DNA of 64,000 nt from Pseudomonas mandelii (GTDB lineage Bacteria; Pseudomonadota; Gammaproteobacteria; Pseudomonadales; Pseudomonadaceae), in contig NZ_JAMYDU010000004.1 of assembly GCF_024138395.1 (NCBI RefSeq), positions 1 through 64,000 on the forward strand, in the 5' to 3' direction. Position 1 is the stretch's first letter. Every line of letters starts with the position of its first letter. Under the pieces are notes generated by a model that was given only the letters and a program-made list of their open reading frames with translations, made no database searches and had not been told where the DNA came from. The translations under genes were made by a program, and so were the position numbers. Shown one piece after another: positions 26,330 to 59,394 of the stretch.

Positions 26330-26343
26330 ACCTTAGCTGTGTT

Positions 26344-30808: not shown

Positions 30809-30844
30809 AAACTAAACCCCAACATTAGTTATGTCAATTAACTA
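30809..30844 (-). promoter_or_regulatory. ech promoter with overlapping palindrome
   Basis: On the minus strand a -35 TTGACA (30837-30832) and a -10 TAGTTT (30814-30809) are 17 bp apart. The inverted repeat TAGTTA (30826-30831) and TAACTA (30839-30844) covers the -35. This is the expected site for the divergent MarR regulator (FerR type), which would block transcription until feruloyl-CoA is present. Confidence 0.65.
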
Positions 30845-40434: not shown

Positions 40435-41319
40435 TTAAAGCTGACCCACAGTGTCGAGGAAATGCTTTTCCATACGTGCAGCGTCAGGCGTAATACCGGT
40501 AAACAATTCAAAACACTTCACCGCCTGAAACACGTTCATTGCGCCGCCACCCAGCGTGCGGCAACCCAAGGCTCGGGCGGTTCTCAACAGTTCGGTTTCA
40601 ATGGGAAAGTACACCACGTCGGCAACCCACAAATCCGCGCGCAAGAACTCGAGTGGCACAGGCATGCCCGGAAGTTTTGCCATACCGATAGGTGTGGTGT
40701 TGACGAGGCCGTCGGCGCAGTTCAGCGATCCTTCAAGATCGCGACCAAACACGGCACGCCCATCGCCGAAGCTCGCATTCAGATTGTTGACCAGCGCCAT
40801 GCCCCGCTCTTCTTCAATATCAAAAATGCTCAACTGCTGAACGCCCTGTTGCAGCAATCCATAAGCCACCGCCGAGCCCGCACCGCCCGCGCCCATTTGC
40901 ACGACGCGCTCACGCTTGGCCCCTTCCAATCCGCGTTTGAAACCTTCGGCGAAGCCTAAACAATCGGTGTTGTAACCGATGGTTTTTCCATCCTTGATGA
41001 CTACCGTGTTCACTGCGCCAATACTGCGTGCTTCGTCGGACAGCTCATCGAGCAGCGGCAGTACTGTCTGTTTGCAAGGGAACGTAATATTCAGTCCGTT
41101 GAAACCCATGCGCTTGGCAGAATCCATCAGCGCCGGCAATGCGCTGGCATCCAGACCCAATTGGTCCAGATCAATCAATTTGTATAAGTAGACCAGGTTC
41201 TGTGCAGCGCCTTCGCGCATATGCAAAGTCGGGCTCATGGACGACTGAAGCGCCGCACCGATCAAACCGATCAACACGTTCGGCGCTACTGGATGCTGGG
41301 CTGATGAGGAGGTGGTCAT
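40435..41319 (-). CDS. Shikimate/quinate dehydrogenase, probably NAD-dependent and catabolic
   Basis: 294 residues. Substrate motif SSMSPTLHM, catalytic Lys in GLNITFPCKQ, Asp in GYNTDCLGF, and cofactor loop QMGAGGAGSAVAYGL followed by LSIFDIEEER. The Asp at the end of the second strand, where NADP enzymes carry Asn-Arg-Thr, points to NAD+ and thus to oxidation of shikimate or quinate rather than biosynthesis. It would give 3-dehydroshikimate or 3-dehydroquinate for AroQ and the dehydratase. AAGGATAATAACA precedes the ATG and overlaps a Crc-like motif. In line with GntR, OprD and MHS genes. Confidence 0.85.
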   Translation of the reverse strand: MTTSSSAQHPVAPNVLIGLIGAALQSSMSPTLHMREGAAQNLVYLYKLIDLDQLGLDASALPALMDSAKRMGFNGLNITFPCKQTVLPLLDELSDEARSIGAVNTVVIKDGKTIGYNTDCLGFAEGFKRGLEGAKRERVVQMGAGGAGSAVAYGLLQQGVQQLSIFDIEEERGMALVNNLNASFGDGRAVFGRDLEGSLNCADGLVNTTPIGMAKLPGMPVPLEFLRADLWVADVVYFPIETELLRTARALGCRTLGGGAMNVFQAVKCFELFTGITPDAARMEKHFLDTVGQL

Positions 41320-41455
41320 TGTTATTATCCTTGGGTATCAGTGGTGTTGCTTCTTTTGCAAGCAGCCGAGTACCGCGCCGCTAACTGCTGCAGGGCGATT
41401 AATGTTTTTGTTTAAGGACGCCCGGACCGCACAGGGTCGAAACGTCAGTGTTTGA

Positions 41456-42181
41456 TCACGCTTCCAGCCCGGTTTCCTGGCGATGAAGAGTGATACAAAT
41501 ATTTTGCGTGGTGCGTTGAATATGCTGAGCAAGCAGCGCACACGCCAGATCGGCATTGCGTTCCAGAGTGGCTGCAACAATAGCTCCGTGCTCGGAATTA
41601 ACGTCCCGGTCAAAAGGGTTTTTCGCCAGAAACAGTCGACGGTAGCGATCGTTCAGATCATGCAAGGTGTTGCAGTAATTAAGCAGCAACGGCATGGCGC
41701 TGGCTTCAAGCAGTTTGAGATGAAAATCTCGGTGCGCCAGCTCCCATAGCTCCTGCTGAGCAGAGGACATGCAATCGGTACGTTTGATGTTGCGCAGTTT
41801 TTCTTCCGCCGCCCGGACCGAATCTGCCCAAGCCTGATCGCCTTTGGTGATCGACTCTCGCAATGCGAGACCTTCGAAATGCACCCGCAGCTTTGCAATC
41901 TCCTGAAGGTTTTTCTCAGACACAGGAATAACCCGGTATCCTCGCTTGTCCTCGATCAGTACCAAGCCTTCGGCGCCCAGTCGGGAAAGCGCCTCCCGAA
42001 GAGGACTTCGACTGATGGTGAGGCCGAGCTTTTCACGCAATGCATCCAGACGCAGCTTGCTGCCCGGGGCTAATTCACCGGTCATGATCGCCAAACGCAG
42101 GCGCTTCACCAAAGAAGTTGCGTGAGTCGTGGTGCTGTCTTCCTGAGCAGACAAGCTTTCGTCCGCTAACATATTGTTCAC
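41456..42181 (-). CDS. GntR-family (FCD) regulator, paralogue 1
   Basis: 241 residues from a GTG start. Winged helix KRLRLAIMTGELAPGSKLRL then LTISRSPLREALSRLGAEG; FCD domain with HRDFHLKLLEA. About three quarters identical by eye to the regulator at 52590-53315. Both have GTG at the same place with GGAGGCCTGTGCA or AGAGGCCTTTGCA upstream, which fixes the start and gives equal length. It sits at one end of the island. A TGCATGCA palindrome lies 115 bp before its start. Confidence 0.88.
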   Translation of the reverse strand: MNNMLADESLSAQEDSTTTHATSLVKRLRLAIMTGELAPGSKLRLDALREKLGLTISRSPLREALSRLGAEGLVLIEDKRGYRVIPVSEKNLQEIAKLRVHFEGLALRESITKGDQAWADSVRAAEEKLRNIKRTDCMSSAQQELWELAHRDFHLKLLEASAMPLLLNYCNTLHDLNDRYRRLFLAKNPFDRDVNSEHGAIVAATLERNADLACALLAQHIQRTTQNICITLHRQETGLEA

Positions 42182-42295
42182 TGCACAGGCCTCCCACCCA
42201 AAACACTCTCTACTGGTGACATACGTCACCTCTTATCGACAATACTAGCGTTTTCGCTTACTAAAACCACGCCAGAAGCAAAAAAATCTTATTTA

Positions 42296-42303
42296 TGCAT
42301 GCA
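42296..42303. promoter_or_regulatory. TGCATGCA palindrome between OprD and GntR1 genes
   Basis: TGCATGCA with A-rich flanks (ATGCATGCAAAAT). Three copies with similar flanks lie in the divergent region 46974-47141, so all four are probable sites for the GntR pair. Here it would give control of the GntR1 gene itself. Confidence 0.6.
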
Positions 42304-42308
42304 AAATC

Positions 42309-42332
42309 AAAAAAAAGCCTGCCGGAGCAGGC
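42309..42332 (-). terminator. Terminator after the OprD gene
   Basis: On the minus strand GCCTGC and GCAGGC pair around the tetraloop TCCG, followed by eight T residues. It lies 22 bp after the stop of the OprD gene. Confidence 0.92.
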
Positions 42333-42353
42333 AAAGATTTGCTGGAGGAGCAA

Positions 42354-43661
42354 TTACAGAATCGAAAGCGGATATTGAATGATCAGACGGTTCTCATCGA
42401 AGCTGTTGGTATTGCCGTAATTTCGACGCAGGGTCGAGTTACGCCAGCGCACGCTGAGGTTTTTCAACGCACCGCTCTGCAGGACGTAAGCCACTTCGGT
42501 CTCACGACCACGGTCCTCACCATCGGTGACAGCTCCGGAATGGACATTGGTACCTTTGATAAACCGGTTCATCAAGGTCAATCCCGGAACGCCCAAAGCC
42601 GCGAAGTTATAGTCGTGGCGCACCTGCCAGGAACGCTCCTTGGCGCCGTCATAACTCCAGCCATAACTGTCGTTAGCCAAGGTCCCACCGCTTGTTCCTG
42701 CAACGCGCTGCCAACCCGTGTCACCCGTGAGGCGCTGCAAACCTACGTAGAAAGTACTGCCGCCCGTCTTGAGCGAAAACAGGCCCGAGAGCGTGCGGTT
42801 GTCCTGGTCGCCGGCCAGCGCTGAACCATCCTCCTCTCCAATGAAGTAGCCAATGTTGGCGCCCAAGGTGAGGTTGTCGTTGATTGGTTGCGAGTGCAAA
42901 AGCTGGAAATATTTCTGTTGGTACACATCTTCGAGTTGAGCGTACCAAGCCCCGACCATTGTTCGGTTGTCATTGAAGCTGTACTCGCCACCGGCAAAAT
43001 TGAAATGATCAGATTCGATCGTATTTTTGCCATGCACCACGGTACCAACGCCGTTTTGCGAGAGTTTCTCCATGCTTGCATCGTTGCGCTGGCTGTTCCC
43101 ACGGAACTGGCCGCCATACAGAGTGACATTGGTGAATTCCTTGGAGGTGATTTGCGCGCCCTCCAGGGTTTGAGGCAATGAGCGACCATCATCGGCGCGC
43201 AAAATAGGCAACACCGGCATCCACTCACCAACTTTCAGTTCGGTCTTTGAGAACTTCATTTTCCCGGCTACAGCCAGTCGCCCAAAATCATCGGCAGGCC
43301 GATTGCCATCGTGTACCGGCAGCAGTTGTGTGCCATAGGTACCTCTTCCCCCGTCCAGTTTGACGGAAAGCATACCCAGTGCATCTACACCAAAACCGAC
43401 TACGCCTGCGGTGTAGCCAGACTTCGCATCAAGGATGAAGCTCTGCGTCCACTCCGCTGCTTCGCCACGCTTGGTGGGCCCCGGAACAGCTTTGGAAGGA
43501 CCGTTATCGACAAAATTACGGTTCATGTAGAAATTGCGTAAGTTAAGGGTGACCTTGGCATCTTCGACGAAGCCCTCCGCCTGGACAAAGGGCACCAAAC
43601 TTGCGGCGCCAATGGCAATGGCCAACGTATTGCGAGTCACCCGGGTCAGTTTGAGGTTCAT
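42354..43661 (-). CDS. OprD-family porin of the quinate/shikimate island
   Basis: 435 residues. Signal peptide ends at FVQAEGF; OprD opening FVEDAKVTLNLRNFYMNRNF; beta-strand repeats and a C-terminal LIIQYPLSIL. Start 43661 is at NLKLTRVTRN with GGGAACAATAATA before it, which also fits a Crc/Hfq motif. It probably lets quinate, shikimate or a related hydroxy acid through the outer membrane, together with the MHS transporter just upstream. Confidence 0.87.
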   Translation of the reverse strand: MNLKLTRVTRNTLAIAIGAASLVPFVQAEGFVEDAKVTLNLRNFYMNRNFVDNGPSKAVPGPTKRGEAAEWTQSFILDAKSGYTAGVVGFGVDALGMLSVKLDGGRGTYGTQLLPVHDGNRPADDFGRLAVAGKMKFSKTELKVGEWMPVLPILRADDGRSLPQTLEGAQITSKEFTNVTLYGGQFRGNSQRNDASMEKLSQNGVGTVVHGKNTIESDHFNFAGGEYSFNDNRTMVGAWYAQLEDVYQQKYFQLLHSQPINDNLTLGANIGYFIGEEDGSALAGDQDNRTLSGLFSLKTGGSTFYVGLQRLTGDTGWQRVAGTSGGTLANDSYGWSYDGAKERSWQVRHDYNFAALGVPGLTLMNRFIKGTNVHSGAVTDGEDRGRETEVAYVLQSGALKNLSVRWRNSTLRRNYGNTNSFDENRLIIQYPLSIL

Positions 43662-43766
43662 TATTATTGTTCCCAAGGAAGATCAATCGACAAAAAGAGA
43701 GTGTCGCGAGGACTTGTATAAAGATCCCCACGTTGTGTTCTTCAGATCTCTAATGCGCGACGCTAA

Positions 43767-43795
43767 TTTATGGCCAACTTAGCGTGGCCATAAAT
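43767..43795. terminator. 11-bp perfect inverted repeat after the MHS gene
   Basis: ATTTATGGCCA (43767-43777) and its complement (43785-43795), loop of seven bases. No T-run follows, so it could be a weak terminator of the MHS gene or a protein-binding site in front of the OprD gene. Confidence 0.45.
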
Positions 43796-43822
43796 GACCA
43801 CACTAAATTGCGCTAGTGGATA

Positions 43823-45220
43823 TCAGGCGGCTTCAACTCCACTTAACGCCTTTGAGCGAGCCTCTTCATAGCTTTGCCTGGATACTGGCCGAGCATCCGC
43901 AGCTCCCAAGTCCTGCATCGGGACCCGGTAAGTTTCCGGCGCACAGTAGGCAGCAAAAGCCGCGATACAGGTCACACCTAAAGTGATGGAACCGATAATC
44001 AGGGGGATATTCTCAGTGCCTGGCGGGGCCGCCAGTGTGAAAACAGCGGGCAGCATGGCGGTAAACAAGGTACCAACGTTCTGCGAGATCGCCATGGCCG
44101 AGCACCGATAACGGGACGGGAACTGCTCCGGGTAAAAGCTTGGGAAGATGGCGTTGTAGCCTTGATAGACGATGCCCCACATCAGTACGGACATGATGAA
44201 TGCCATGGGCAAATTATGAACGCTGATTGCATACAGGTAAGCAAACGAGAGCAACCCGGAACCCAACGCCCCACCGATAATCATTGGTCGCCGGCCGATT
44301 TTGTCGGACAGATTACCCACGAAAGGAATAATCAAGACCGCCACGATGTTGCCAATAACCGGGATCCACAAGTACACACTTTTATCAAACCCGACTCCGT
44401 AAACCGGCTGCACCGCATAGACCGCGCCGAACACCGTAGTCACAACTGGAATAACGTTCATCAGTGCAACACAGACCACGATCAGCATACTTTTCCAGCT
44501 GTAACGGAAGGCTTCTGAGATCGGTGAACTGGTAATCTTGTTTTTCGCTTCAACCTCAGTAAATACAGGGGTTTCACTCACACCTCTGCGGATGAAATAC
44601 CCGGCGATCAGCACACCGGCACTCATCAGGAACGGTATACGCCAGCCCCATGAGTTGAAGTCCTCAGCCGGCATGAAATAGGCCAGTGGCAGGAAGACCG
44701 CGGCGGCAAGCACCTGCCCGAATTGGACGCCTTGCAAGGTGAAGCTTGCAAAGTACCCTCGTCGTCCGAATGGCGCATGCTCGAGAATCATCGAACTGGC
44801 ACCCGAGATCTCCCCCGCCACTGCGAAGCCCTGCACCAGGCGGAGCAGCACTAGCGCAATCGGCGCCCAAATGCCGACCTGATTATAGGTGGGCAGTAAG
44901 CCAACACCCATGGTCGCAATGCCCATCAGGAACATGCACAGCAACAGTACGTTTTTTCGACCGCGAGTATCGCCCCAATGCCCAAGGAAAAATGCACCGA
45001 CTGGTCGCGCCAGGTAACCCACGCCATAGGTCGCCAGTGAGAGTGCGATGGCGACTTTCGGATCGGTCGCGGGGAAAAAAAGTGCCGGAAAAATCAACGC
45101 TGCCGCTTGGGCATAGATGAAAAAATCGTAGTACTCCAATGCAGACCCAATCCAACCGCTGGCGGCCGCTTTCTTGGACTGGTGTGTGCTATTGGTTTCT
45201 TGAATCGTGGAATTACTCAT
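43823..45220 (-). CDS. MHS-family (metabolite:H+) symporter, shikimate type candidate
   Basis: 465 residues, 12 membrane segments. Opening ASGWIGSALEYYDFFIYAQA, motif GHWGDTRGRKNVLLL and RLVQGFAVAGEISGA are typical of the MHS group that includes ShiA, KgtP and ProP. AroQ and shikimate dehydrogenase neighbours support shikimate or quinate as substrate. Start 45220 at SNSTIQE with GGTGA upstream; AACAATAATAAC lies further up. Gap of 83 bp to aroQ. Confidence 0.87.
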   Translation of the reverse strand: MSNSTIQETNSTHQSKKAAASGWIGSALEYYDFFIYAQAAALIFPALFFPATDPKVAIALSLATYGVGYLARPVGAFFLGHWGDTRGRKNVLLLCMFLMGIATMGVGLLPTYNQVGIWAPIALVLLRLVQGFAVAGEISGASSMILEHAPFGRRGYFASFTLQGVQFGQVLAAAVFLPLAYFMPAEDFNSWGWRIPFLMSAGVLIAGYFIRRGVSETPVFTEVEAKNKITSSPISEAFRYSWKSMLIVVCVALMNVIPVVTTVFGAVYAVQPVYGVGFDKSVYLWIPVIGNIVAVLIIPFVGNLSDKIGRRPMIIGGALGSGLLSFAYLYAISVHNLPMAFIMSVLMWGIVYQGYNAIFPSFYPEQFPSRYRCSAMAISQNVGTLFTAMLPAVFTLAAPPGTENIPLIIGSITLGVTCIAAFAAYCAPETYRVPMQDLGAADARPVSRQSYEEARSKALSGVEAA

Positions 45221-45303
45221 TGTAATCACCGTTATTATTGTTATCGGATACAGAGTGTTGGCGGCCCTTTCAAAGCAGTCGCCAGCAAACTATTTCTTTG
45301 ATT

Positions 45304-45747
45304 TCAAGCCCTGGCTTTTGCTGCGCTTACACCCGCCCGTAAACCGAGCAAGTAGCTGTCTGCACCGAACCCACAGATTTGTCCTGTCACGATCTGGCCA
45401 AATACCGAATGATGACGGAACTCCTCGCGGGCATGGATGTTGGACATATGGATCTCGACCACTGGCACCGTAAGGATCGCCAATGCGTCACGGATGCCGT
45501 AACTGTAATGAGTCCAGGCACCTGCGTTGATGAGTACTGCATCCACGCCGTCGAAATAGCCCTGATGGATGCGCTCGCACATTTCGCGTTCGCTATTGGT
45601 CTGAAAACTTTCAATCGTTACGCCCAACTCTTCACCCAACGAGCGCAAGCTGGCGTCAATTTCGTTCAAGGTGATTGTTCCGTATTGCTTCGGATCACGC
45701 TTACCGAACATGTTGTGATTTACACCATGGAGCATCAGGACTTTCAT
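45304..45747 (-). CDS. aroQ: Type II 3-dehydroquinate dehydratase, catabolic
   Basis: 147 residues, usual length. Catalytic Tyr in KQYGTITLNEI, Asn in LINAGAWTHYSYG, His in EIHMSNIHAREEFRHHS. The opening LHGVNHNMFGKRDP differs from the common LNGPNLNLLG, which may mark a specialised catabolic branch. It converts 3-dehydroquinate to 3-dehydroshikimate. GAGGAACAAGC precedes the ATG. 13 bp after the Gfo/Idh gene, thus co-transcribed. Confidence 0.92.
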   Translation of the reverse strand: MKVLMLHGVNHNMFGKRDPKQYGTITLNEIDASLRSLGEELGVTIESFQTNSEREMCERIHQGYFDGVDAVLINAGAWTHYSYGIRDALAILTVPVVEIHMSNIHAREEFRHHSVFGQIVTGQICGFGADSYLLGLRAGVSAAKARA

Positions 45748-45760
45748 GCTTGTTCCTCAA

Positions 45761-46813
45761 TCAACTCAGATTGACTTCGATGACGCGCCCGGTCTTTGCA
45801 GCCCGGACAATGGCGTCGGTGATTTCCAGGTTAAGCAGTCCATCGCGGGCGCTGACCAATGGCTGAGTCTCGCCCCTGACTACAGCGCCGAAATGCTCCA
45901 TCTGATGCATGATCGGGTCTTGCCGGATCATGCCGACAACGCCGACTTCAAATGGCTTCCACCACGAGCGATCCTCGGACCGCGGATAGGTTTTCAAACG
46001 CATGGTAGGAATTGAGAGACTGCCGTCGGTCCCGGAGACCACGTAGCAGTCCTCATCTTCGTAGGTGGGATAGGCCATGTTTTCCTGGGAGGTTTGCTCC
46101 CAGCTACGCGGTGAGGCGGCGGTGTCAGACAACATGAATGTGCCCAACGCACCATTCGCGAATCGCAGATTGATCGCGACGGTGTCTTCGACCGGGAACT
46201 CTCGAACTGCATGGGAGGAGAAAGCCTGAACGGCGACGATTTCCCCACAGAGCATGCGCAGGTTATGCACCTCGTGAATCATGTTGAGGAGGATGGGCCC
46301 CGCCCCAACTTCTCGACGCCAAGGTGCATCCACGTAGTAGTGATCAGGTTTGACGAATTGCGCACTGCCCATCACTGAGACAAGCCGCCCCAGCACACCG
46401 CTTTTAATCACCTCGCGTGCTTTAGCCATGATCGGACTGTGTGCACGGTGATGACCGATGAGAATGCGAGCGCCCTTCTCATCAGCCATCTGCACCAGCG
46501 CACGCCCTTCTTCTACCGTCGGAGCAATTGGCTTTTCCAGCAGCATGGCCAAGCCGGCGTTCATGCACAGCTCAGCATGAGCGACGTGCAGTTGATTAGG
46601 CGTAGCGAGTACCACTGCGTCAGGACGATCTTTTTCAATCATCTCTTCCAGTGAGGCATACAGCGCAACACCAGCCTGCGCGGCAAGCACGTGGGCGGCC
46701 GGTGATGGGTCGATGACAGCGGCAAGTTGGCATGTAGGGCTTTGCAGTAATGCCGCCATATGCGCCTGACCGATGTAGCCAGCGCCGGCTACCGCAATTC
46801 GAGTCGTGATCAT
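45761..46813 (-). CDS. Gfo/Idh/MocA-family oxidoreductase
   Basis: 350 residues. Rossmann motif IAVAGAGYIGQAHMAAL, AVVLATPNQLHVAHA, and the family Lys in LLEKPIAPTVEEG; then the C-terminal alpha/beta domain with NMIHEVHNLRMLCG. First gene of the minus-strand operon, directly facing the meta-pathway operon. Two roles are plausible: a second quinate/shikimate dehydrogenase, or oxidation of the ring-cleavage semialdehyde in its cyclic form, as LigC of this superfamily does in the 4,5-cleavage pathway. Start 46813 at ITTRIAVAG; a GTG 12 bases upstream is possible. Confidence 0.85.
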   Translation of the reverse strand: MITTRIAVAGAGYIGQAHMAALLQSPTCQLAAVIDPSPAAHVLAAQAGVALYASLEEMIEKDRPDAVVLATPNQLHVAHAELCMNAGLAMLLEKPIAPTVEEGRALVQMADEKGARILIGHHRAHSPIMAKAREVIKSGVLGRLVSVMGSAQFVKPDHYYVDAPWRREVGAGPILLNMIHEVHNLRMLCGEIVAVQAFSSHAVREFPVEDTVAINLRFANGALGTFMLSDTAASPRSWEQTSQENMAYPTYEDEDCYVVSGTDGSLSIPTMRLKTYPRSEDRSWWKPFEVGVVGMIRQDPIMHQMEHFGAVVRGETQPLVSARDGLLNLEITDAIVRAAKTGRVIEVNLS

Positions 46814-46973
46814 GATGGCGAGCACTCAATGCAGAGGGCCCGAGGAAGGATGTTCATAGCGCTACCCGTAGTAATTGTATTTGTCGGGATTCATCAATCG
46901 CTGCTTTGCATACAGCGCCGTGAGACAAAAGGTAAGCAGGACCAAGAAGCCTGTCAACGAACATTTGATTTTT

Positions 46974-47141
46974 TGCATGCACAAAATAAACGACAGAATC
47001 AAAAACATCGATAAACCCCAATAAAATCAGCAATAAACTCAGAAGATGTATGCGATTATTTTTTCAATATGCGATTTTGCATGCATTTTCTTGACGCTAC
47101 CGAAGAGAAAGCTTAGGGTTTGATCAGTCGATTTGCATGCA
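46974..47141. promoter_or_regulatory. Divergent control region with three TGCATGCA operators
   Basis: TGCATGCA occurs at 46974-46981, 47078-47085 and 47134-47141, each with T-rich left and A-rich right flanks. The spacing is 104 and 56 bp. The region is AT-rich and lies between the two operons that start at 46813 and 47175. The likely binders are the two GntR paralogues. AAACAAGAAG between the last site and the CMD-family gene fits a Crc/Hfq motif. Confidence 0.7.
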
Positions 47142-47174
47142 AAACAAACAAGAAGCCAAACAGGAACGCTCAAC

Positions 47175-47627
47175 ATGTCTAAAGCTCCAGTCGATCTCAG
47201 CGCGATTACCCGGTCGGCAGGCCTGGATCCCGCCATTCAGAAACATTCATTGGAAACCTTCGGGCCGGCCTACCGCGATCTGCTGGGTTACGTTCCGCCT
47301 CGCATTCAGGCGCGTTTCGGTACAACCGGTGTGCTCGACCCCGAGCTGGTCAAGCTGCAAGAAGCCATGCGCAGTCACGCAATGAATACGCCGCATCTGG
47401 ATCCGAAAATGGTCCAGATCATCCTGTTCGGGATGTTGCTGATGGATGGCAACGATGCCGCCGAAACCCATTGCCTCGCTGCTCGCCGTTGCGGCGCCAG
47501 CTGGGAAGAATTGCAAGCCACTATCAGCCTCTGTTTCCTGTTCCGGGGGCTGCCAGCGGCAAACCGTGGCGCTGACCTTCTGGTCCGTGTTGCTGCTCGT
47601 GAAGAGCCAGTCGTCTACCCAACCTGA
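47175..47627 (+). CDS. Carboxymuconolactone decarboxylase-family protein
   Basis: 150 residues. CMD fold pattern: [20 protein letters not shown] then [17 protein letters not shown], with the conserved His and following Cys. There is no pcaB or pcaD partner, so it is not placed in the beta-ketoadipate route. As first gene of the meta-pathway operon it may decarboxylate the protocatechuate 2,3-cleavage product. Start 47175 with AGGAA eight bases upstream. 11 bp before the hydratase gene. Confidence 0.82.
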
Positions 47628-47638
47628 GGAGCGTCGCC

Positions 47639-48442
47639 ATGAACAATTCGAATGTGCAGGATGCGGCCGACTTGCTTGACCAGGCCGCTCAAAGCGGTGA
47701 ATGGATAACGCCTCTGCGTGATATCCAACCCGCATTCAGCATCGACGATGCTTATGCGATTCAACAGATCAACACTGATCGTCAGTTGGCCAAGGGGCGA
47801 CGCATCGTCGGCCGAAAAATCGGCCTTACGTCGAAAGTGGTACAGAAGCAACTGGGCGTGGATCAGCCTGATTTCGGCGCCCTGTTCGATGACATGGGTT
47901 ATGGCAGTGGTGAAGTGATTGCCTGGGGTTCTTTGCATCAACCCAAGGTCGAAGCAGAAATCGCCTTTGTCCTCAAAAACAATCTGGACATGCCAAATCC
48001 TGGCTTGGTGGATGTGCTCGACGCCATCGACTACGCCTTGCCTGCGATTGAAATAGTCGGCAGTCGCATCGACAAGTGGAACATTCGCATCGTCGACACC
48101 GTCGCCGACAACGCCTCTTCGGGCGCCTACGTATTGGGCACCACTCCCCGGAACGTCAAGGACATCAACCTCGACCTGTGCGGCATGGTCATGGAACGTC
48201 GTGGCGAGCCGGTCTCTACCGGGGTCGGTAAAGCCTGCCTCGGCAACCCACTCAACGCAGTGGTATGGCTGGCACGCAAGATGGTCGAAGTGGGCCAACC
48301 ACTGCGCGCGGGTGACTTGGTGCTGTCTGGCGCCCTTGGGCCGATGGTCGAAGTACAACCAGGCGATATCGTCGAGGCACGCATCAACGGTCTGGGCTCG
48401 GTCACCGCCGTGTTTGGCACTGCACAAGAGGTATCAGCATGA
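47639..48442 (+). CDS. 2-oxopent-4-enoate (2-keto-4-pentenoate) hydratase
   Basis: 267 residues, close to MhpD/XylJ. Stretches [60 protein letters not shown] and [13 protein letters not shown] are all typical. It adds water to 2-oxopent-4-enoate to give 4-hydroxy-2-oxovalerate for the aldolase encoded downstream. GAGGAGCGTCGCC precedes the ATG. Overlaps the decarboxylase gene by four bases, fitting the known complex of these two enzymes. Confidence 0.92.
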
Positions 48443-49206
48443 GCAACATCGCAGAATTCGCCGCGCGCCTGGACGAGGCCGCCCGCACAGCAACCGCCAC
48501 CCAACAGATCGATCCCGAGTCGGTGATGAGCCTGGAACAGGCCTACCAAATCCAGGCCGCCAACATTGCTCATCGGGTCGAACGCGGGGAGAAACTGGTC
48601 GGCGTGAAGATGGGTTTTACCAGCCGCGCCAAGATGATTCAGATGGGTATCGACGACGTGATCTGGGGCCGTCTGACCAGTGATATGCGAGTCGAGGAAG
48701 GCACAGCGCTGAAATTGTCCGATTACGTCCACCCGCGGGTCGAGCCTGAAATTGCGTTCCTGCTCAAAGCCCCCTTGGCTGGCGACGTGAGTGCCAGCGA
48801 AGCGCTGGCAGCGGTCGAGGCCGTGGCCCCGGCACTGGAGATCATCGATTCGCGCTACAAGGACTTCAAGTTCTCACTGCCTGACGTCATTGCCGACAAC
48901 GCCTCATCTTCAGGATTCGTGATCGGCAACTGGCATGCTCCGGACACTGACCTGAGCAACTTGGGCATGGTCATGAGTTTCGACGGCAAGGTACAACACG
49001 TTGGCTCCAGTGCGGCGATTCTCGGCAATCCGGTGCGCGCACTGGTGGCTGCTGCACGCCTGGCGGCTGAAGCAGGCATCCCGCTGCAGGCTGGCTCCAT
49101 CGTCATGGCTGGCGCAGCGACCGCGGCCGAATGGCTGTTACCGGGGACTTATGTTCGCCTGGAAATGCAGAACCTGGGCTCTATCGGTTTCCACGTTCAG
49201 GAGTAA
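48439..49206 (+). CDS. 4-oxalocrotonate decarboxylase
   Basis: 255 residues, homologous to the preceding hydratase but of the XylI/DmpH type: [48 protein letters not shown], and [16 protein letters not shown]. It converts 2-oxohex-3-enedioate to 2-oxopent-4-enoate. ATG overlaps the hydratase stop. With the tautomerase next to it, it shows that the oxidative (oxalocrotonate) branch is used, not the hydrolytic branch. Confidence 0.92.
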
Positions 49207-49209
49207 GTC

Positions 49210-49413
49210 ATGCCTATCGCCATCATCAATATCATCGAAGGCCGCAGCGACGAGAAGAAGCAGGCGTTGATCGCCAGCGTCTCCCAAGCCATCGCGCAAA
49301 GCCTGGATGCTCCGCTGGAAAGCGTTCGGGTCCTGGTCCAGGAATACCCAGACAACCTGTGGGCCGCCGGCGGCGAAACTATCCGCGAGCGACGCAGCAA
49401 GGCCAGCCAATAG
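49210..49413 (+). CDS. 4-oxalocrotonate tautomerase
   Basis: 67 residues. After Met removal the catalytic Pro is first (PIAIINIIEGRSDEKK), Arg follows at the expected site (EGR), and SVRVLVQEYPDNLWAAGG gives the second Arg and the aromatic residue (Trp). It isomerises 2-hydroxymuconate to 2-oxohex-3-enedioate. Three bases after the decarboxylase stop. Confidence 0.94.
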   Translation: MPIAIINIIEGRSDEKKQALIASVSQAIAQSLDAPLESVRVLVQEYPDNLWAAGGETIRERRSKASQ

Positions 49414-49458
49414 CTCCGATCCCGACGCGGCAACGCACAGCACAAGAAGGACAATAAG

Positions 49459-50400
49459 ATGAGCAAGCCTGTAAAAGTCGCCATCATCGGTTCCGGTAAC
49501 ATTGGCACCGATTTGATGATCAAAATCCTGCGTCATGGCAAGTACCTGGTAATGGGTGCCATGGTGGGTATCGACCCGGCCTCCGATGGCTTGGCCCGTG
49601 CCGAGCGCATGGGTGTCGCAACTACCGCGGGGGGCATTGAAGGCTTGCTGGCGATGGAAGGCTTCAAGGACATCAAGATCGTGTTCGACGCCACTTCCGC
49701 CGGCGCCCATGCTCACCACAATGCCTTGCTTCAACCTCACGGCATCAAGGTCATAGACCTTACGCCAGCAGCCATTGGCCCCTACGTGATTCCAGCGATC
49801 AACCTGGATTCGGAACTCGATGCCAGCAACCTGAATATGGTCACCTGCGGCGGCCAAGCCACGATTCCGATCGTCGCTGCGGTATCCCGCGTGGCCAAGG
49901 TTCACTATGGCGAAATTGTTGCCTCGATCTCCAGCAAGTCAGCAGGTCCGGGGACTCGAGCCAATATCGACGAGTTCACCGAAACCACCACCGCCGCCAT
50001 CGAGAAACTCGGTGGTGCTACCCGTGGCAAGGCGATGATTGTACTTAACCCGGCCGAGCCGCCGCTGATCATGCGCGACACTGTCTTTGTGCTGTCCGAA
50101 TTGGCTGACCAGGATGAAATCGAACGCTCGATTCTCGACATGGTGTCGAGCATGCAGAGCTACGTGCCGGGTTATCGCCTCAAACAAAGCGTGCAGTTCG
50201 AAGTGATCCCGCCTGAAGTACCGGTCAATGTCCCGGGCCTGGGCTACCTGAGTGGCCTGAAAACTTCGGTGTTCCTTGAGGTGGAAGGCGCAGCGCATTA
50301 CCTGCCCGCCTACGCCGGCAACCTGGACATCATGACTTCGGCCGCCATGGCGTGTGCCGAACGCATTGCCGCCACCCGCCTGAACGCAGTCGAGGCCTGA
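49459..50400 (+). CDS. Acylating acetaldehyde dehydrogenase
   Basis: 313 residues, family length (MhpF/DmpF). NAD motif [16 protein letters not shown], catalytic Cys in [16 protein letters not shown], and [20 protein letters not shown]. It makes acetyl-CoA from acetaldehyde, channelled from the aldolase. AAGGACAATAAG precedes the start. Stop lies three bases before the aldolase gene, as usual for this enzyme pair. Confidence 0.95.
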
Positions 50401-50403
50401 CGC

Positions 50404-51417
50404 ATGGACATCAAGAAAAAGCTCTACATCTCAGACGTCACCCTGCGCGACGGCAGCCATGCCATTCGCCACCAGTATTCGATCAAGAATGCTCAGGACA
50501 TCGCTCGCGCACTGGACAAGGCAAAAGTCGACGCCATCGAAGTCGCACACGGCGACGGCTTGCAAGGTTCGAGCTTCAACTATGGTTTTTCAGCGCACTC
50601 GGATCTGGAATACATCGAGGCGGTGGCGGATGTCATCAGCCACGCCAAAATCACCACGTTGCTGTTGCCCGGTATCGGTACGGTTCACGACCTCAAGGCG
50701 GCTTACAACGCCGGCGCTCGCGTCGTTCGAATCGCCACTCACTGCACGGAAGCAGACGTGTCACGCCAGCATATCGAGTACGCTCGTGAACTGGGCATGG
50801 ATACCGTCGGCTTCCTGATGATGAGCCATATGCTCGCACCGCAAGACCTGGCTAAACAGGCGAAGCTGATGGAGAGCTATGGCGCCACCTGCGTGTACAT
50901 GGCCGACTCTGGCGGCGCGATGAACATGCAGGACATTCGCGAGCGCTTCCGCGCGTTCAAGGCTGTGCTCAAGGCTGAAACTGAAACCGGCATGCACGCT
51001 CACCACAACCTGTCGCTGGGTGTCGCCAACTCGATCACTGCGGTGGAAGAAGGTTGTGACCGCATTGATGCCAGCCTTGCCGGCATGGGTGCCGGTGCGG
51101 GCAACGCGCCACTGGAAGTCTTTATCGCTGCTGCCGAGCGCCTGGGCTGGAACCACGGTACGGACCTCTACACCCTGATGGACGCCGCCGATGACATCGT
51201 CCGTCCCTTGCAGGATCGCCCGGTACGGGTTGATCGCGAAAGCCTGGCCCTGGGATATGCCGGGGTCTATTCAAGCTTCCTGCGACACGCTGAAGTCGCG
51301 GCAACCAAATACGGCCTCAAGACTGTCGATATCCTCGTTGAACTGGGCAAGCGCCGCATGGTTGGGGGGCAGGAAGACATGATCGTCGACGTGGCTCTGG
51401 ACCTGCTTCGTCGTTGA
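50404..51417 (+). CDS. 4-hydroxy-2-oxovalerate aldolase
   Basis: 337 residues (MhpE/DmpG). TIM barrel with metal Asp in [13 protein letters not shown] and HAHHN in [15 protein letters not shown], plus the C-terminal communication domain. It splits 4-hydroxy-2-oxovalerate to pyruvate and acetaldehyde and forms a complex with the dehydrogenase encoded just before. Confidence 0.95.
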
Positions 51418-51447
51418 ACCTGAACAATAAAAAGGTGAGTTGAATCC

Positions 51448-52476
51448 ATGAACAAAACCAGCAAGTTTCATCCTGAACCTCTTTATGACGTTTCGAACCT
51501 CGGTCATGTCGAGCTTAATACTCCTGACCTGGCCGCCAGCGTGCGCTTCTTCACTGAAGTTTACGGCCTGGATCTGGTCACTACCCAAGGCGACTCGGCT
51601 TACCTGAGAGCGTGGGGCGACCACGATCTCACCTCGCTGAAACTGACTCAGGCTCGGCAAGCAGGCGCCGCGCACATCGGCTGGCGCGTCATGAGTCCGC
51701 AGGCACTGGAACGTCGTGTCGCGGCACTGAAAGCCTATGGTGTTGAAGGAAAATGGATCGATGGCGACGTCGGTCATGGCGCTGCCTACAGCTTTATCGC
51801 ACCGAGCGGGCACCGTATGGAGGTCTACTATGAGGCCGAAAAGTATGTGCCGACCGCGGACAAGAAGCCGTACCTGCCCAACCAGCCGCAAAAATTCAGC
51901 GGCCGCGGCGTGGCGGCTGCACGCATCGACCACATCAACATTCTGACTCAGGATGTGGTCAAGACTCGCGAATTCGCAGACCAGACCATGGGCTTCAAAT
52001 TGCGCGAGCATTTGATCCCGGGCGGCCAAGGCGAAGAAGTCGGTGCCTGGATGAGCCTGATGAACAAGGCCCATGACTTGGCTATCACCAAGGAGCCGAG
52101 TCCGACTGCCAGCGGTCGACTCCATCACTTGGCCTATGCCGTTGAAAATCGGGAAGACGTATTGCGCGCTGCAGATATCTTCATGGAGAACGACGTCCAC
52201 ATCGAATTCGGCCCGGCCAAGCATTCGCGTACGCAAGGTTTCTTTCTGTACGTGTACGAACCGGGCGGCAACCGCATTGAAGTCTTCTCCGGCGGCATTC
52301 ACATCTTCACTCCCGATTGGGAACCTGTGACCTGGGGCACCGAAGTCAAAGGCCGTTCCACCGCGTGGGGCCTTGGCGTACCGGAGAGCTTCCACAAGTA
52401 CGCGACACCCGATGTACAGGTGCCAGAGGCAACCCCCGCGGCCAAAGCTGCTGCGATGGCTGCGTTAAGCGAGTGA
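51448..52476 (+). CDS. Extradiol ring-cleavage dioxygenase (type I, VOC fold)
   Basis: 342 residues, two VOC domains. Metal ligands His162 (RIDHINIL), His227 (RLHHLAYAV) and Glu278 (GGNRIEVF); His209 and Trp201 (GAWMSLMNKAHD) match second-sphere residues of homoprotocatechuate 2,3-dioxygenase, and Asn164 is also kept. The closest remembered relative is that enzyme group, whose substrates carry a carboxylate, rather than XylE. Given a dehydroshikimate dehydratase in the same operon, protocatechuate (2,3-cleavage) is the best substrate guess; catechol is the alternative. AACAATAAAAAGGTGAG precedes the gene. Confidence 0.9.
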   Translation: MNKTSKFHPEPLYDVSNLGHVELNTPDLAASVRFFTEVYGLDLVTTQGDSAYLRAWGDHDLTSLKLTQARQAGAAHIGWRVMSPQALERRVAALKAYGVEGKWIDGDVGHGAAYSFIAPSGHRMEVYYEAEKYVPTADKKPYLPNQPQKFSGRGVAAARIDHINILTQDVVKTREFADQTMGFKLREHLIPGGQGEEVGAWMSLMNKAHDLAITKEPSPTASGRLHHLAYAVENREDVLRAADIFMENDVHIEFGPAKHSRTQGFFLYVYEPGGNRIEVFSGGIHIFTPDWEPVTWGTEVKGRSTAWGLGVPESFHKYATPDVQVPEATPAAKAAAMAALSE

Positions 52477-52589
52477 GGTCTGAGCCTGTCGGCGAATAGC
52501 TGACAGGCCGCCAGACATCGCGGATGATAGGGCGTATCGAGACGGCAATGTTTGCCGTCTCTCGAGTGATTGGGTCAGAGGCCTTTGCA

Positions 52590-53315
52590 GTGAACGAGAT
52601 GTTGATGGAAGAGAGCCTGCACGCGCAGGAAGACAGCACGACTACCCATGCCACCTCCTTGGTCAAGCGTCTGCGTATGGCGATCATGACCGGTGAGTTG
52701 GCCCCGGGTAGCAAGCTGCGCCTGGATGCACTGCGCGAAAAGCTGGGTCTGACCATCAGTCGAAGTCCACTGCGCGAGGCCCTTTCCCGGCTGGGCGCTG
52801 AAGGCCTTGTCCTCATCGAGGACAACCGCGGCTATCGGGTTATCCCGGTTTCGGAAGAAAACCTTCAGGAAATTGCGAAACTGCGGGTGCACTCCGAAAG
52901 CCTGGCGTTACGCGAAGCGATTGCCAAGGGTGATCAAGCTTGGCTCGACGGTGTATGCCAGGCCGAAGCCGCCCTTCGCGAAATCAAGCGCAGCGACCAG
53001 GCGGTCGCTGGGCGCCAAGAAGCCTGGGAGCACGCTCATCGTGACTTTCACCTGAAGTTGCTCGAGGCCTGCGCCATGCCGTTGCTGCTTAACTACTGCA
53101 ACACCTTGCACGACCTGAACGATCGTTACCGTCGCATGTTCCTGGCCAAGAACCCTTTTGACCGGGATGTGAACGGCGAACATGCGGCCATCGTTGCTGC
53201 CACCAAGGAACGTAACGCCGACCTGGCATGCGCCCTTCTGGCCCAGCATATCCAGCGCACCACGCAGAACATCTGCCGGAGCCTGGTCGCTCAAAATCTC
53301 CAGACACCCGGTTGA
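52590..53315 (+). CDS. GntR-family (FCD) regulator, paralogue 2
   Basis: 241 residues from GTG at 52590, preceded by AGAGGCCTTTGCA as in paralogue 1. The DNA-binding half is almost identical (KRLRMAIMTGELAPGSKLRL, LTISRSPLREALSRL), so both should bind the same operators. Differences gather in the ligand half (LRVHSESLALREAIAKG against LRVHFEGLALRESITKG), so they may answer to different intermediates. Located inside the plus operon between the dioxygenase and the dehydratase. Confidence 0.88.
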   Translation: MNEMLMEESLHAQEDSTTTHATSLVKRLRMAIMTGELAPGSKLRLDALREKLGLTISRSPLREALSRLGAEGLVLIEDNRGYRVIPVSEENLQEIAKLRVHSESLALREAIAKGDQAWLDGVCQAEAALREIKRSDQAVAGRQEAWEHAHRDFHLKLLEACAMPLLLNYCNTLHDLNDRYRRMFLAKNPFDRDVNGEHAAIVAATKERNADLACALLAQHIQRTTQNICRSLVAQNLQTPG

Positions 53316-53394
53316 TTCGCTCCAGAACGACCCTGCGGTAGATTCAAACACAATAAATAATACGACGCCGTCATGGCCGTCGTAGGGAGACTCT

Positions 53395-54903
53395 ATGCGC
53401 CATTCAATCGCAACAATGGTTCTGTCCGGTAGCCTGCCAGAAAAAATGAAAGCCGCAGCCCATGCCGGTTTCGACGCCATTGAGTTATTCGAAAACGACC
53501 TGATTCAATGCGACCTCAGCCTTGCCGAAATACGCGAACTTGCGTTGCAATTGAACCTGAGGCTGGACATCTATCAGCCTTTACGGGATTTCGAGGGCGT
53601 ATCGGCCGCGCAGCTGGCACGTAACCTCGACCGGGCGGAATACAAATTCGACATCATGCAAGAGTTGGGCATCGACTTGATGGGGGTTTGCTCCAACGCG
53701 CAAGCCGATGCACTGGGTGATCGCCAATTGATCGCTGATCAGCTGGCTGAACTTGCACAACGTGCAGCTCGGCGGCAACTGCGAATCGGTTTCGAATCGT
53801 TGTCGTGGGGCACTCACTGCAATCGCTGGAGCCATGCCTGGGAGGCGGTGCAACGCGCCGATCAGCACAACCTCGGGCTGATTCTGGACAGCTACCATAC
53901 GCTGGCACTGCACGATGACTACAGCGCCATTGTTGAAATCCCCGGTGAGCGGATCTTCTACTTTCAGCTGTCCGATGCCCCCTTCGAGATCGGTTCACCT
54001 CCCCTCTATACACGGCCATTGCGAACCCTTCCTGGACTCGGTCAATTCGACATGGTCGGCTTCACCGATACCGTTTTACAAACCGGCTACCAAGGTCCTT
54101 TATCGCTGGAAATATTCAGCGACGAATACCGCGGCGCTCCAGCAGAGTCGACTGCACGTGGCGCCAAAGCCTCACTTTTATGGCTAGAGGAACGTGTGCA
54201 AGAGCGGCGCCTGGCTCGCGGTGAACCCTCCTCGCCAATTCTCAAAGCACCGGAGCCTTCGCGTGAATTGTCTCCTTACTCGTTAATCAGCGAATCCCCT
54301 GAGGCAAACGAGTTGCAGCATCTCCTGGGTTTGATTGGACCATGGAGCACAGAGGCAGTAGCTCAGGCCGTTCCGGCCGGCGAAATGGAAACCTTCAGTG
54401 CCGAGTACCGCAGACGCTTCGCCATGCAGCGCCAGATACCGATCCTCAAGCACGATCCCAAGGGTGTGATACGTGGCAGGACTCTCTTCACTGATGTCTG
54501 CGCCATCGAGCTGGAAACCTCCATTCACAGTGCCACGCTGGTAGCAAACGCCAGCAAGGACCGCCGCTTTACCCGCCTGACCATTGCCGTCCCAGACCTA
54601 CAGAAAGCGCTAATGGCCATTGGCGGCGACAGTCAGCCGCCACTGGTTCTGTCGGCTCATTACTACGACGACCTGCGTGCCCGCTTCTCCCTGAGCGAGG
54701 ATAAGACCAACAGCTTGCGCAAACTAAACGCTGCCTATGACCGGCAAGGTGATGGCGAGCTCTTACAAGCCTTCGTTCCGGTCGGTACCGATGGATTTTG
54801 CCTGCACGTGGTTGAGCGTCGACCTGGCTATCCATCCCAGTCATGGGACATGGCCAACGCTTACGTGGTGAACGCGGCGCTGAAGGCCCGCCTGTCTAAA
54901 TAA
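53395..54903 (+). CDS. quiC: 3-dehydroshikimate dehydratase with degenerate HPPD-like C-terminal domain
   Basis: 502 residues. Residues 1 to about 280 form a sugar-isomerase-like TIM barrel (AGFDAIELFENDL, GFESLSWGTHCNRW, LILDSYHTLALHD, LEIFSDEYRGA) with metal-type Glu, His and Asp. Residues about 300-502 resemble only part of a VOC/HPPD domain, ending CLHVVERRPGY. QuiC proteins of P. putida have this fusion but are longer (about 630 residues), so a sub-domain seems lost. It makes protocatechuate from 3-dehydroshikimate. GTAGGGAG precedes the ATG. Last gene of the plus operon. Confidence 0.85.
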   Translation: MRHSIATMVLSGSLPEKMKAAAHAGFDAIELFENDLIQCDLSLAEIRELALQLNLRLDIYQPLRDFEGVSAAQLARNLDRAEYKFDIMQELGIDLMGVCSNAQADALGDRQLIADQLAELAQRAARRQLRIGFESLSWGTHCNRWSHAWEAVQRADQHNLGLILDSYHTLALHDDYSAIVEIPGERIFYFQLSDAPFEIGSPPLYTRPLRTLPGLGQFDMVGFTDTVLQTGYQGPLSLEIFSDEYRGAPAESTARGAKASLLWLEERVQERRLARGEPSSPILKAPEPSRELSPYSLISESPEANELQHLLGLIGPWSTEAVAQAVPAGEMETFSAEYRRRFAMQRQIPILKHDPKGVIRGRTLFTDVCAIELETSIHSATLVANASKDRRFTRLTIAVPDLQKALMAIGGDSQPPLVLSAHYYDDLRARFSLSEDKTNSLRKLNAAYDRQGDGELLQAFVPVGTDGFCLHVVERRPGYPSQSWDMANAYVVNAALKARLSK

Positions 54904-54990
54904 ATGCACCGCAGCCGTGAAATCTGCATCCGCAGGTCTGTTTAAGCGACATCCCGAACAATTAAAACAACTGTGCAGGAGCACGGGACA

Positions 54991-56145: not shown

Positions 56146-56930
56146 CAAAATCGGTGGGCATGCCAGAGATCGGCGCGCAAACGCTGACCGAGTCGGACAT
56201 GTGGGGGGCGACGCCGTTCGATCAACTGCTCTGCCGTATCTCGTTCAAGAAAATGCGTTACGACGGGCTGTACACCGCACCAGGCACCGATATCTCGCTG
56301 AGCTTCCCGGGTTCGCCGGGCGGCATGAACTGGGGCGGTATCTCGACTGATCCGGTACACGGTTTCATCTTCGTCAACGACATGCGTCTGGGCCTGTGGA
56401 TCCAGATGGTGCCGCAGCAGAAAGATGCCAAGACCTCTTCCGGCGGCGAAGCGCTAAACACCGGCATAGGCGCGGTACCGCTCAAAGGCACCCCGTATGC
56501 CGTGAACAAGAATCGATTTCTGTCTGTCGCCGGTATCCCTTGCCAGGCACCGCCCTTTGGCACACTGACCGCGATCGACATGAAAACCCGGAAAGTCGCG
56601 TGGCAAGTGCCGGTTGGCACCGTCCAGGACAGTATCAAGATGCATTTGGCCTTGCCGATCGGCATGCCGACGCTGGGCGGTACACTCTCCACTCAAGGCG
56701 GTTTGGTATTCATCGCCGGTACACAGGACTACTACCTGCGCGCTTTCAACTCCGCCAACGGAGAAGAGGCCTGGAAAGCCCGGCTGCCCGTGGGCAGCCA
56801 AGGTGGCCCGATGACGTTTGTGTCGCCGAAAACAGGCAAGCAGTACATTGTCATCACCGCGGGTGGTGCGCGCCAGTCAGCCGATCGCGGCGATTATGTG
56901 ATCGCTTACGCGCTGCCTGAGAGCAAGTAA
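56146..56930 (+). pseudogene. C-terminal fragment of a membrane PQQ-dependent dehydrogenase (quinate/shikimate/glucose type)
   Basis: About 260 residues of an enzyme that is normally near 800. ESDMWGATPFDQLLCRI, GGMNWGGISTDPVHGFIFVN and YIVITAGGARQSADRGDY are family signatures of the C-terminal propeller. The membrane part and most of the propeller are missing. It is joined directly to the chemotaxis receptor remnant. In this context QuiA (quinate/shikimate dehydrogenase) is more likely than glucose dehydrogenase. The open frame starts inside the receptor sequence, so it is not a real gene. Confidence 0.88.
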
Positions 56931-59387: not shown

Positions 59388-59394
59388 CCCTCTT

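Follow-up and report, generated by a model that had tools for sequence, protein, structure and literature searches.

We describe a gene cluster at positions 40435-54903 of a 64,000-nucleotide stretch of the Pseudomonas mandelii genome (the window), in which genes for the catabolism of quinate and shikimate are linked to a VOC-family extradiol dioxygenase, a protein of the CMD family and genes of a lower meta-cleavage pathway. The core of this cluster recurs in eight genomes, a recurrence that is not due to chance, and we conclude that it is a real, conserved and rare module. Protocatechuate is the substrate that we favour for the dioxygenase, and we suggest, in a reading that stops just short of probable, that quinate is converted to protocatechuate, which undergoes extradiol cleavage and decarboxylation by the CMD protein before its product is oxidized by an unlinked aldehyde dehydrogenase. 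Gene content, conservation and the clade and family assignments are described below as observed, and substrates as predicted.

A rare and conserved module

An orthologous dioxygenase was found in one of 298 genomes of the genus, the window's own, the best others being 33-36% identical. A class-level search of 369 genomes at E 1e-70 or better matched the same genome and one further genome (G662) alone, while an order-level search of 390 genomes returned G662, a member of another family, at 75% identity and two more at 45-46%, in whose fetched stretches quinate genes were not seen. Scanning genome contigs by pattern gave 86 relatives, of which 80 were kept, a lower bound owing to the pattern step: that of Pseudomonas sp. 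TH31 is 100% identical, those of five Streptomyces or Saccharopolyspora loci 69-74%, that of Embleya 67%, and the remainder at most 56%. No relative was found in the viral contigs searched.

Eight loci were counted as quinate-type, namely the window, TH31 (L049), G662, and L034, L035, L036, L037 and L039; the genomes come from two Pseudomonas, a further member of the order, four Streptomyces and one Saccharopolyspora. AroQ, a TIM barrel resembling dehydroshikimate dehydratase (DSD), the CMD protein, the dioxygenase and the 4-oxalocrotonate decarboxylase-like protein HydB are each present in all eight. The tautomerase (4-OT) is present in seven (not L039), the hydratase-like HydA in six (not L035 or L039), and the aldolase and acetaldehyde dehydrogenase in five (not L035, L036 or L039, in the last of which an aldolase match of 50 residues was left uncounted). 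An MHS-type transporter accompanies six of the loci and an AroE-family gene five, the L049 stretch stopping short of its position. TH31 DNA is 94.6% identical to the window over 13.8 kb. In G662 a single operon runs CMD, HydA, HydB, 4-OT, acetaldehyde dehydrogenase, aldolase, dioxygenase, GntR, DSD, AroQ and shikimate dehydrogenase, which keeps the order of the window's plus-strand operon with proteins 57-81% identical; pcaG and pcaH follow the module on the opposite strand (TIGR02423 246 bits and TIGR02422 337 bits, both above cut-off). Gene order differs in Streptomyces, and the linkage has therefore been kept through rearrangement.

The initial annotation had proposed a quinate/shikimate-to-extradiol module, and its proposal is borne out by this conservation in other genomes and rarity in the genus. 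The genes it named (OprD, MHS, AroE-type, AroQ, CMD, dioxygenase, lower enzymes, QuiC-like) are all present by family matches, and the search for the same gene order elsewhere that it called for recovered the core in eight genomes and the plus-operon order in G662. It overlooked a Gfo/Idh oxidoreductase (45761-46825) and both GntR/FCD regulators. A cluster joining quinate genes to extradiol, 4-oxalocrotonate or CMD genes was not found in titles or opening abstracts, a search whose coverage excluded most subscription journals.

The extradiol dioxygenase

Among the 87 rows of the tree, the dioxygenase falls in a clade of 10 (SH-aLRT 100) with those of TH31, G662, the five actinobacterial quinate-type loci and two Embleya loci; the tree was made by a quick method and has long outgroup branches, the order outside this clade is unsure, and the partial sequence from L113 was excluded. 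The three metal ligands are identical in 87 of 87 rows. We read the ligands and the other active-site residues with the roles known from XylE and HPCD. By alignment, position 209 corresponds to H199 of 1mpy (XylE) and position 261 to L248. Position 209, the site of the catalytic His, is His throughout the clade (10/10), in the other CMD-type rows (7/7) and in the catechol-type rows (14/14), and Tyr in 23 of 25 rows from loci with PIG-L or LigK-type genes, that is, of the 4-oxalomesaconate (OMA) type; the remaining 31 rows have His (19), Tyr (10) or Asn (2). Three Alicyclobacillus rows from pra-like loci also carry Tyr209, and Tyr is therefore no clean mark of gallate. Position 261 is Arg in 10/10 clade members and in none of the 77 others, which have Ile, Val, Leu or Asn, making Arg261 a candidate carboxylate binder. 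Family and active-site residues together are compatible with C2-C3 cleavage of protocatechuate. The closest solved sequence, PDB 9wgj (47% identity), carries the title 'Catechol 1,2-dioxygenase' despite being an extradiol relative of the VOC family.

Proposed pathway and the oxidation step

We propose that OprD and the MHS transporter would import quinate or shikimate, that the AroE-family enzyme would convert quinate to 3-dehydroquinate, or shikimate to 3-dehydroshikimate, that AroQ would produce 3-dehydroshikimate, and that the QuiC-like TIM barrel would dehydrate the latter to protocatechuate. The dioxygenase would cleave protocatechuate, with 2,3 cleavage the likeliest since its product is a beta-formyl acid, which decarboxylates easily; the CMD protein would strip the ring carboxylate to give 2-hydroxymuconate-6-semialdehyde (HMS), an unlinked aldehyde dehydrogenase would oxidize this to 2-hydroxymuconate, and 4-OT, HydB, HydA, the aldolase and the acetaldehyde dehydrogenase would yield pyruvate and acetyl-CoA. 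We infer the CMD reaction, the regiochemistry and the aldehyde-oxidizing step, for which no gene was identified; that every step but one has a family match supports the protocatechuate reading, as do the five components shared by all eight loci, the single G662 operon ending in DSD, AroQ and shikimate dehydrogenase, and the His209 and R261 of the clade.

All three upper enzymes, the quinate/shikimate dehydrogenase, the dehydroquinate dehydratase and the dehydroshikimate dehydratase, are represented, the third by a divergent paralogue below the QuiC cut-off that aligns to stretches 1-290 and 443-628 of the 635 positions of NF042435 and conserves the residues read as metal ligands. The earlier label of dehydroshikimate dehydratase needs qualifying: the protein is a QuiC relative with about 150 residues of the VOC part absent, and a full, canonical QuiC (1292.6 bits, cut-off 1200) lies on another contig. 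The CMD gene stands first in the operon in the window, G662 and TH31 and directly upstream of the dioxygenase in seven actinobacterial clade loci; the closest solved relatives of its product are CMD-family proteins, with weak E-values. At 1e-8, no CMD relative was found in 151 genomes of the Lysinibacillus family, a search run without a positive control. In a more distant branch, L113, a 4-hydroxybenzoate 3-monooxygenase gene (NF006091 605, cut-off 351; TIGR02360 533.5, cut-off 538.7) lies divergent from a CMD-dioxygenase pair, and since that enzyme makes protocatechuate the arrangement supports protocatechuate there. A MetE-like methyltransferase gene lies near the CMD-dioxygenase pair of two Chloroflexota loci, L041 (11384-12466; NF005085 268.6 bits, below the cut-off of 313) and L113 (2642-3733).

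If protocatechuate is the substrate, ring opening and decarboxylation leave an aldehyde, and 4-OT and HydB can act only once this has been oxidized. Searches with two aldehyde dehydrogenases had no match at 1e-5 in the stretches fetched for the other seven quinate-type loci, and in the window they matched 28365-29813 alone, about 10.6 kb from the cluster. That gene belongs to what looks by eye like a ferulate/vanillin set at 24459-30825 (reductase, GntR, acyl-CoA synthetase, aldehyde dehydrogenase, enoyl-CoA hydratase), of which the aldehyde dehydrogenase alone was scanned by family. The HMS dehydrogenase cut-off of TIGR03216 (693) is strict, the catechol-clustered aldehyde dehydrogenases of L108 and L100 also falling below it at 577 and 611. 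Family scans covered the highest-scoring TIGR03216 match in every genome, or the top two in G1047, together with nine out of 25 aldehyde dehydrogenase matches in the window's own genome. The top matches are BetB in the own genome, G662 and TH31, and BADH-, StyD- or HpaE-like elsewhere; among these, a match in G1043, which along a partial stretch scores 610.9 to HpaE (cut-off 638), could carry out HMS oxidation there. A true but unlinked HMS dehydrogenase was considered and set aside, none of the eight quinate-type genomes having a match above the cut-off; the scanned matches are BetB, BADH-like, StyD-like, PuuC-like, ExaC, aminobutyraldehyde dehydrogenase, SSADH-like or HpaE-like. Six of the nine own enzymes (L009-L013 and 28365-29813) lie below every equivalog cut-off, and candidates for HMS oxidation therefore exist; what appears to be absent is a recognizable HMS dehydrogenase. 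Among eight genomes that hold the more distant CMD-type loci, seven from Chloroflexota and one a Rubrobacter metagenome-assembled genome, none exceeded the cut-off either (one reached 573 bits), nor did two control genomes (576 and 610 bits). Embleya scabrispora, by contrast with the quinate-type genomes, has a TIGR03216 match above cut-off (725 bits) on another contig than its locus. The Gfo/Idh/MocA oxidoreductase, which has weak kinship to PmdC and to 4,5-dihydroxyphthalate dehydrogenase, was considered as a LigC-like oxidizing core step and set aside, since it resembles PmdC weakly and has no match in G662, L034, L036, L037 or L039.

Several observations weigh against the protocatechuate pathway. 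The cluster in the window has no HMS dehydrogenase, and whole-genome searches with TIGR03216 put none of the eight quinate-type genomes above the cut-off, with best scores of 437-494 bits (completeness is stated for G000 and G662 alone); the best match in the own genome, at 454 bits, is BetB by family. We found no precedent for a CMD protein as decarboxylase of a protocatechuate cleavage product, and the CMD match of the TH31 record is divided between two frames. The role suggested for R261 is based on alignment position rather than a substrate-bound structure. The three actinobacterial TIM barrels scanned reach 47-69 bits to NF042435 and are distantly DSD-like. A second protocatechuate route also looks redundant, because the own genome holds, besides its canonical QuiC, pcaHG (TIGR02422 318.5 and TIGR02423 168.9 bits on the matched parts, both above cut-off). 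Lastly, the two Embleya loci, in whose fetched stretch quinate genes were not found, do have an aldehyde dehydrogenase gene, some 4.5 kb ahead of CMD; its product is, among the nine own aldehyde dehydrogenases, nearest to 28365-29813 (41.7%), and because that one sits in the ferulate-type row the substrate of the Embleya enzyme may be an aromatic aldehyde further upstream rather than HMS. This kinship weakens Embleya as support for the pathway and, with the split TH31 CMD, makes the pathway a little less likely than even.

Alternative explanations

A route through gallate and pyrogallol, unlikely in our estimate and yet the most serious competitor, would do away with the aldehyde altogether. 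AroE-type enzymes can form gallate in bacteria, and here the AroE-family enzyme would oxidize 3-dehydroshikimate further, the TIM barrel aiding aromatization to gallate; the CMD protein would yield pyrogallol, and the dioxygenase, opening the ring beside the third hydroxyl, would give 2-hydroxymuconate directly, with no aldehyde dehydrogenase. The balance is exact (gallate plus O2 minus CO2 is 2-hydroxymuconate), so that all steps after gallate could be clustered, and the lack of an HMS dehydrogenase above cut-off in eight genomes where HydB (8/8) and 4-OT (7/8) are clustered would be explained. Relatives at 44-50% identity occur in loci of the OMA type; a PIG-L and/or LigK match lies nearby in 25 of the 87 tree rows, LigK-type aldolases exceed the NF006731 cut-off in L112 and L088, an OMA tautomerase lies beside the dioxygenase in L091 (503 bits, cut-off 440) and L088 (437), and the separate QuiC and pcaHG already serve protocatechuate. 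Against gallate speak the contrast between Tyr209 in 23 of 25 PIG-L/LigK rows and His in all ten members of the quinate clade, the DSD-like TIM barrel with conserved residues in 8/8 loci, which points to protocatechuate, and the fact that we know of no CMD-family protein that acts as a gallate decarboxylase. The fuller proposal of a previously undescribed aldehyde-free quinate route, in which a shikimate-dehydrogenase-type enzyme and a DSD-derived TIM barrel would make gallate from 3-dehydroshikimate, CMD would be its decarboxylase, pyrogallol would be cleaved and HMS dehydrogenase would be dispensable in eight genomes, we judge distinctly unlikely. The single LigB-fold match in the own genome was considered as a gallate dioxygenase and rejected, being nearest to DOPA dioxygenase (189 bits, below the cut-off of 233). 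In the actinobacterial loci L088 (7540-10984) and L091 (8254-10942) a VOC-type dioxygenase gene shares an operon with genes for a LigK-type aldolase and a 4-oxalomesaconate tautomerase (and with PIG-L in L088); both have the look of gallate operons with a dioxygenase outside the LigB type.

The CMD protein might instead decarboxylate protocatechuate first, leaving catechol to an ordinary catechol 2,3-dioxygenase and the HMS to an unlinked oxidizing enzyme. NCBIfam does name the dioxygenase so, its TIGR03211 score of 328.8 exceeding the cut-off of 320.2, and CMD shares its apparent operon in 10/10 clade loci; we nonetheless find this improbable, given that one Streptomyces orthologue scores 310.7, below cut-off, that catechol would leave the clade-specific R261 without an obvious role, and that the missing HMS dehydrogenase would still be required. 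Protocatechuate might also be degraded without oxidation, an FAA-hydrolase-fold protein deformylating HMS hydrolytically or the semialdehyde being hydrated and cleaved, with no dehydrogenase required. The divergence of HydA and HydB, both under the DmpE and DmpH cut-offs, and the 0/8 HMS dehydrogenase count would fit, whereas 4-OT and a DmpH-like protein suit a dicarboxylate intermediate better and no member of the family is known to us to deformylate HMS, and we regard it as very improbable. Hardly credible, finally, is a decaying or silent remnant, redundant beside the beta-ketoadipate route, as the duplicated GntR, the shortened VOC domain of the DSD, the TH31 CMD in two frames and a disrupted quinate-type pyrroloquinoline quinone (PQQ) dehydrogenase adjoining the cluster might suggest: all pathway frames of the window are open, and both the TH31 identity over 13.8 kb and the preserved operon order and protein identity in G662 argue against decay.

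If the protocatechuate pathway is real, pseudomonads and streptomycetes would gain a quinate/shikimate pathway that leads to pyruvate and acetyl-CoA, not to beta-ketoadipate, by way of a CMD-type decarboxylation. The puzzle is a route to 2-hydroxymuconate without a recognizable HMS dehydrogenase, and it could be answered either by a new decarboxylase together with an extradiol enzyme that accepts a carboxylated ring, or by a gallate route free of oxidation that would be of interest in lignin-aromatic engineering.

Locus layout, regulation and surroundings

The 15 open reading frames of the cluster, all open, form two divergent operons (Table 1). In the minus operon the gene order is Gfo/Idh, AroQ, MHS transporter, OprD, GntR1 and the AroE-family dehydrogenase; this last enzyme is probably NAD-type, to judge from the Asp that comes after its second Rossmann strand (FDIEEE). 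The order in the plus operon is CMD, HydA, HydB, 4-OT, acetaldehyde dehydrogenase, aldolase, dioxygenase, GntR2 and the QuiC-like protein, with intergenic gaps of -4 to 79 bases. HydA and HydB have the FAA-hydrolase fold and fall below their equivalog cut-offs (DmpE and DmpH). The CMD start is probably the ATG at 47175, the upstream TTG at 47133 falling within an operator-like palindrome.

Table 1. Features of the quinate-extradiol cluster in the window
Feature	Position	Strand	Evidence
AroE-family quinate/shikimate dehydrogenase	40435..41319	-	NF009201 433.3 bits (cut-off 235); NF010631 284 bits
GntR/FCD regulator 1	41456..42229	-	Pfam GntR + FCD; TTGCATGCA upstream at 42296-42304
OprD-family outer-membrane porin	42354..43676	-	PF03573 E 4e-147
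MHS-type MFS transporter, putative quinate/shikimate uptake	43823..45229	-	MFS_1/Sugar_tr
AroQ, type II 3-dehydroquinate dehydratase	45304..45747	-	PF01220 (DHquinase_II) E 3e-52
Gfo/Idh/MocA oxidoreductase, first gene of minus operon	45761..46825	-	Pfam
Divergent promoter region	46826..47174	.	operator-like TTGCATGCA sites at 46973, 47077, 47133/47134
CMD-family protein, proposed decarboxylase	47175..47627	+	PF02627; start = proposed ATG
HydA, 2-oxopent-4-enoate hydratase-like	47639..48442	+	NF008461 346.5 bits (cut-off 350); TIGR03220 288.3 (cut-off 408.8)
HydB, 4-oxalocrotonate decarboxylase-like	48439..49206	+	best = TIGR03218 225.6 bits, below cut-off 350.6
4-OT (2-hydroxymuconate tautomerase), 67 aa	49210..49413	+	TIGR00013 75.4 bits, above cut-off; PF01361
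Acylating acetaldehyde dehydrogenase	49459..50400	+	TIGR03215 463 bits, above cut-off
4-hydroxy-2-oxovalerate aldolase	50404..51417	+	TIGR03217 590 bits, above cut-off
VOC-family extradiol dioxygenase	51448..52476	+	TIGR03211 328.8 (cut-off 320.2); ligands H162, H227, E278; H209; clade-specific R261
GntR/FCD regulator 2	52524..53315	+	identity to regulator 1; G662 relative at same place
QuiC-like 3-dehydroshikimate dehydratase paralogue	53395..54903	+	TIM barrel + shortened VOC remnant; NF042435 378 bits (cut-off 1200)

The two GntR/FCD regulators are 82.9% identical over 246 residues and probably act at TTTGCATGCAAA sites, the predicted operators being the palindromes in the divergent promoter and ahead of GntR1. 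The same palindrome also precedes CMD in G662 and TH31. Shuffled sequences reached the palindrome counts in 3/100 cases for the window, 19/200 for the G662 stretch and 1/100 for TH31, so that the counts are weak alone and the shared position upstream of CMD is the better argument.

Downstream of the cluster, comparison of 54973-56930 with TH31 (L049 13526-18012) shows about 2.5 kb absent from the window at about 56145, a junction at which the start of a chemotaxis-receptor-like gene runs into the final part of a gene for a membrane PQQ dehydrogenase (TIGR03074, the glucose/quinate/shikimate family); the TH31 gene for this dehydrogenase is itself in two frames. About 5-7 kb downstream of its module TH31 has a second AroQ (L049 18280-20488), 72-73% identical to that of the cluster, with an FAA-hydrolase-fold and an SDR-like gene; by blastn against 36001-64000 of the window, this stretch matches the cluster AroQ alone. 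At 57678-61949 the window encodes an MFS transporter, an EmrA-like adaptor (below cut-off) and a NodT-type outer-membrane factor (TIGR01845, above cut-off), which have the look of a tripartite efflux system.

Comparison with known systems

With the canonical quinate route to beta-ketoadipate (QuiC, pcaHG) the cluster shares the enzymes leading from quinate through dehydroquinate and dehydroshikimate to protocatechuate; in the cluster, however, these genes are linked to extradiol genes, and QuiC and pcaHG lie separately in the genome. The claim that the cluster operates instead of the beta-ketoadipate route was too strong, as pcaHG, a catA-like gene and a canonical QuiC are all retained, and in G662 pcaGH adjoin the module. 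The gal pathway degrades gallate by means of GalA, GalD, GalB and GalC. Relatives of the cluster dioxygenase do sit with OMA-tautomerase, PIG-L and LigK-type genes, whereas the cluster has the 4-oxalocrotonate branch; no PIG-L or LigK-type match was found in L034-L037, L039, L049, G662 or the window, and no search was aimed at the OMA tautomerase.

The pra system of Paenibacillus sp. JJ-1b, reportedly ordered praR-praABEGFDCHI with PraI a 4-hydroxybenzoate hydroxylase and PraR of the IclR type, shares with the cluster an extradiol dioxygenase, a decarboxylation, and the tautomerase, decarboxylase, hydratase, aldolase and acetaldehyde dehydrogenase that lead to pyruvate and acetyl-CoA. The cluster differs in being fed by quinate/shikimate genes and having GntR regulators, in that no PraB-type HMS dehydrogenase was found, and in having CMD in place of PraH. 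The initial annotation saw exactly the lower steps of pra and a complete lower meta pathway; the tautomerase, decarboxylase-like, hydratase-like, aldolase and acetaldehyde dehydrogenase genes are there, and an HMS dehydrogenase or hydrolase gene is not, a PraB counterpart being found in 0/8 clusters. The pra label thus does not fit in two defining steps, HMS dehydrogenase and PraH. Three Alicyclobacillus loci do have an Amidohydro_2 protein beside the dioxygenase, an aldehyde dehydrogenase and the lower genes (by Pfam in L059, by 56% matches in L067 and L075), an arrangement that we take to resemble pra; used as a query, this presumed PraH-like protein had no match at 1e-5 in L034-L037, L039, L049, G662 or the window. 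The same three loci also have PIG-L and LigK matches, placing two lower routes beside one dioxygenase.

PraH is given as 28% identical to OpaD, and OpaD as 30% identical to the 2-amino-3-carboxymuconate-6-semialdehyde (ACMS) decarboxylase NbaD (PMC6362003); on these grounds PraH looks ACMSD-type. The system of strain PTH10, like the one proposed here, combines in a Pseudomonas the extradiol cleavage of a carboxylated catechol, a decarboxylation and the lower meta pathway; in contrast to the proposed one it acts on another ring substrate with another dioxygenase, uses the NbaD/PraH-like OpaD, and has both an HMS dehydrogenase, OpaE, and a hydrolase, OpaH (PMC6362003).

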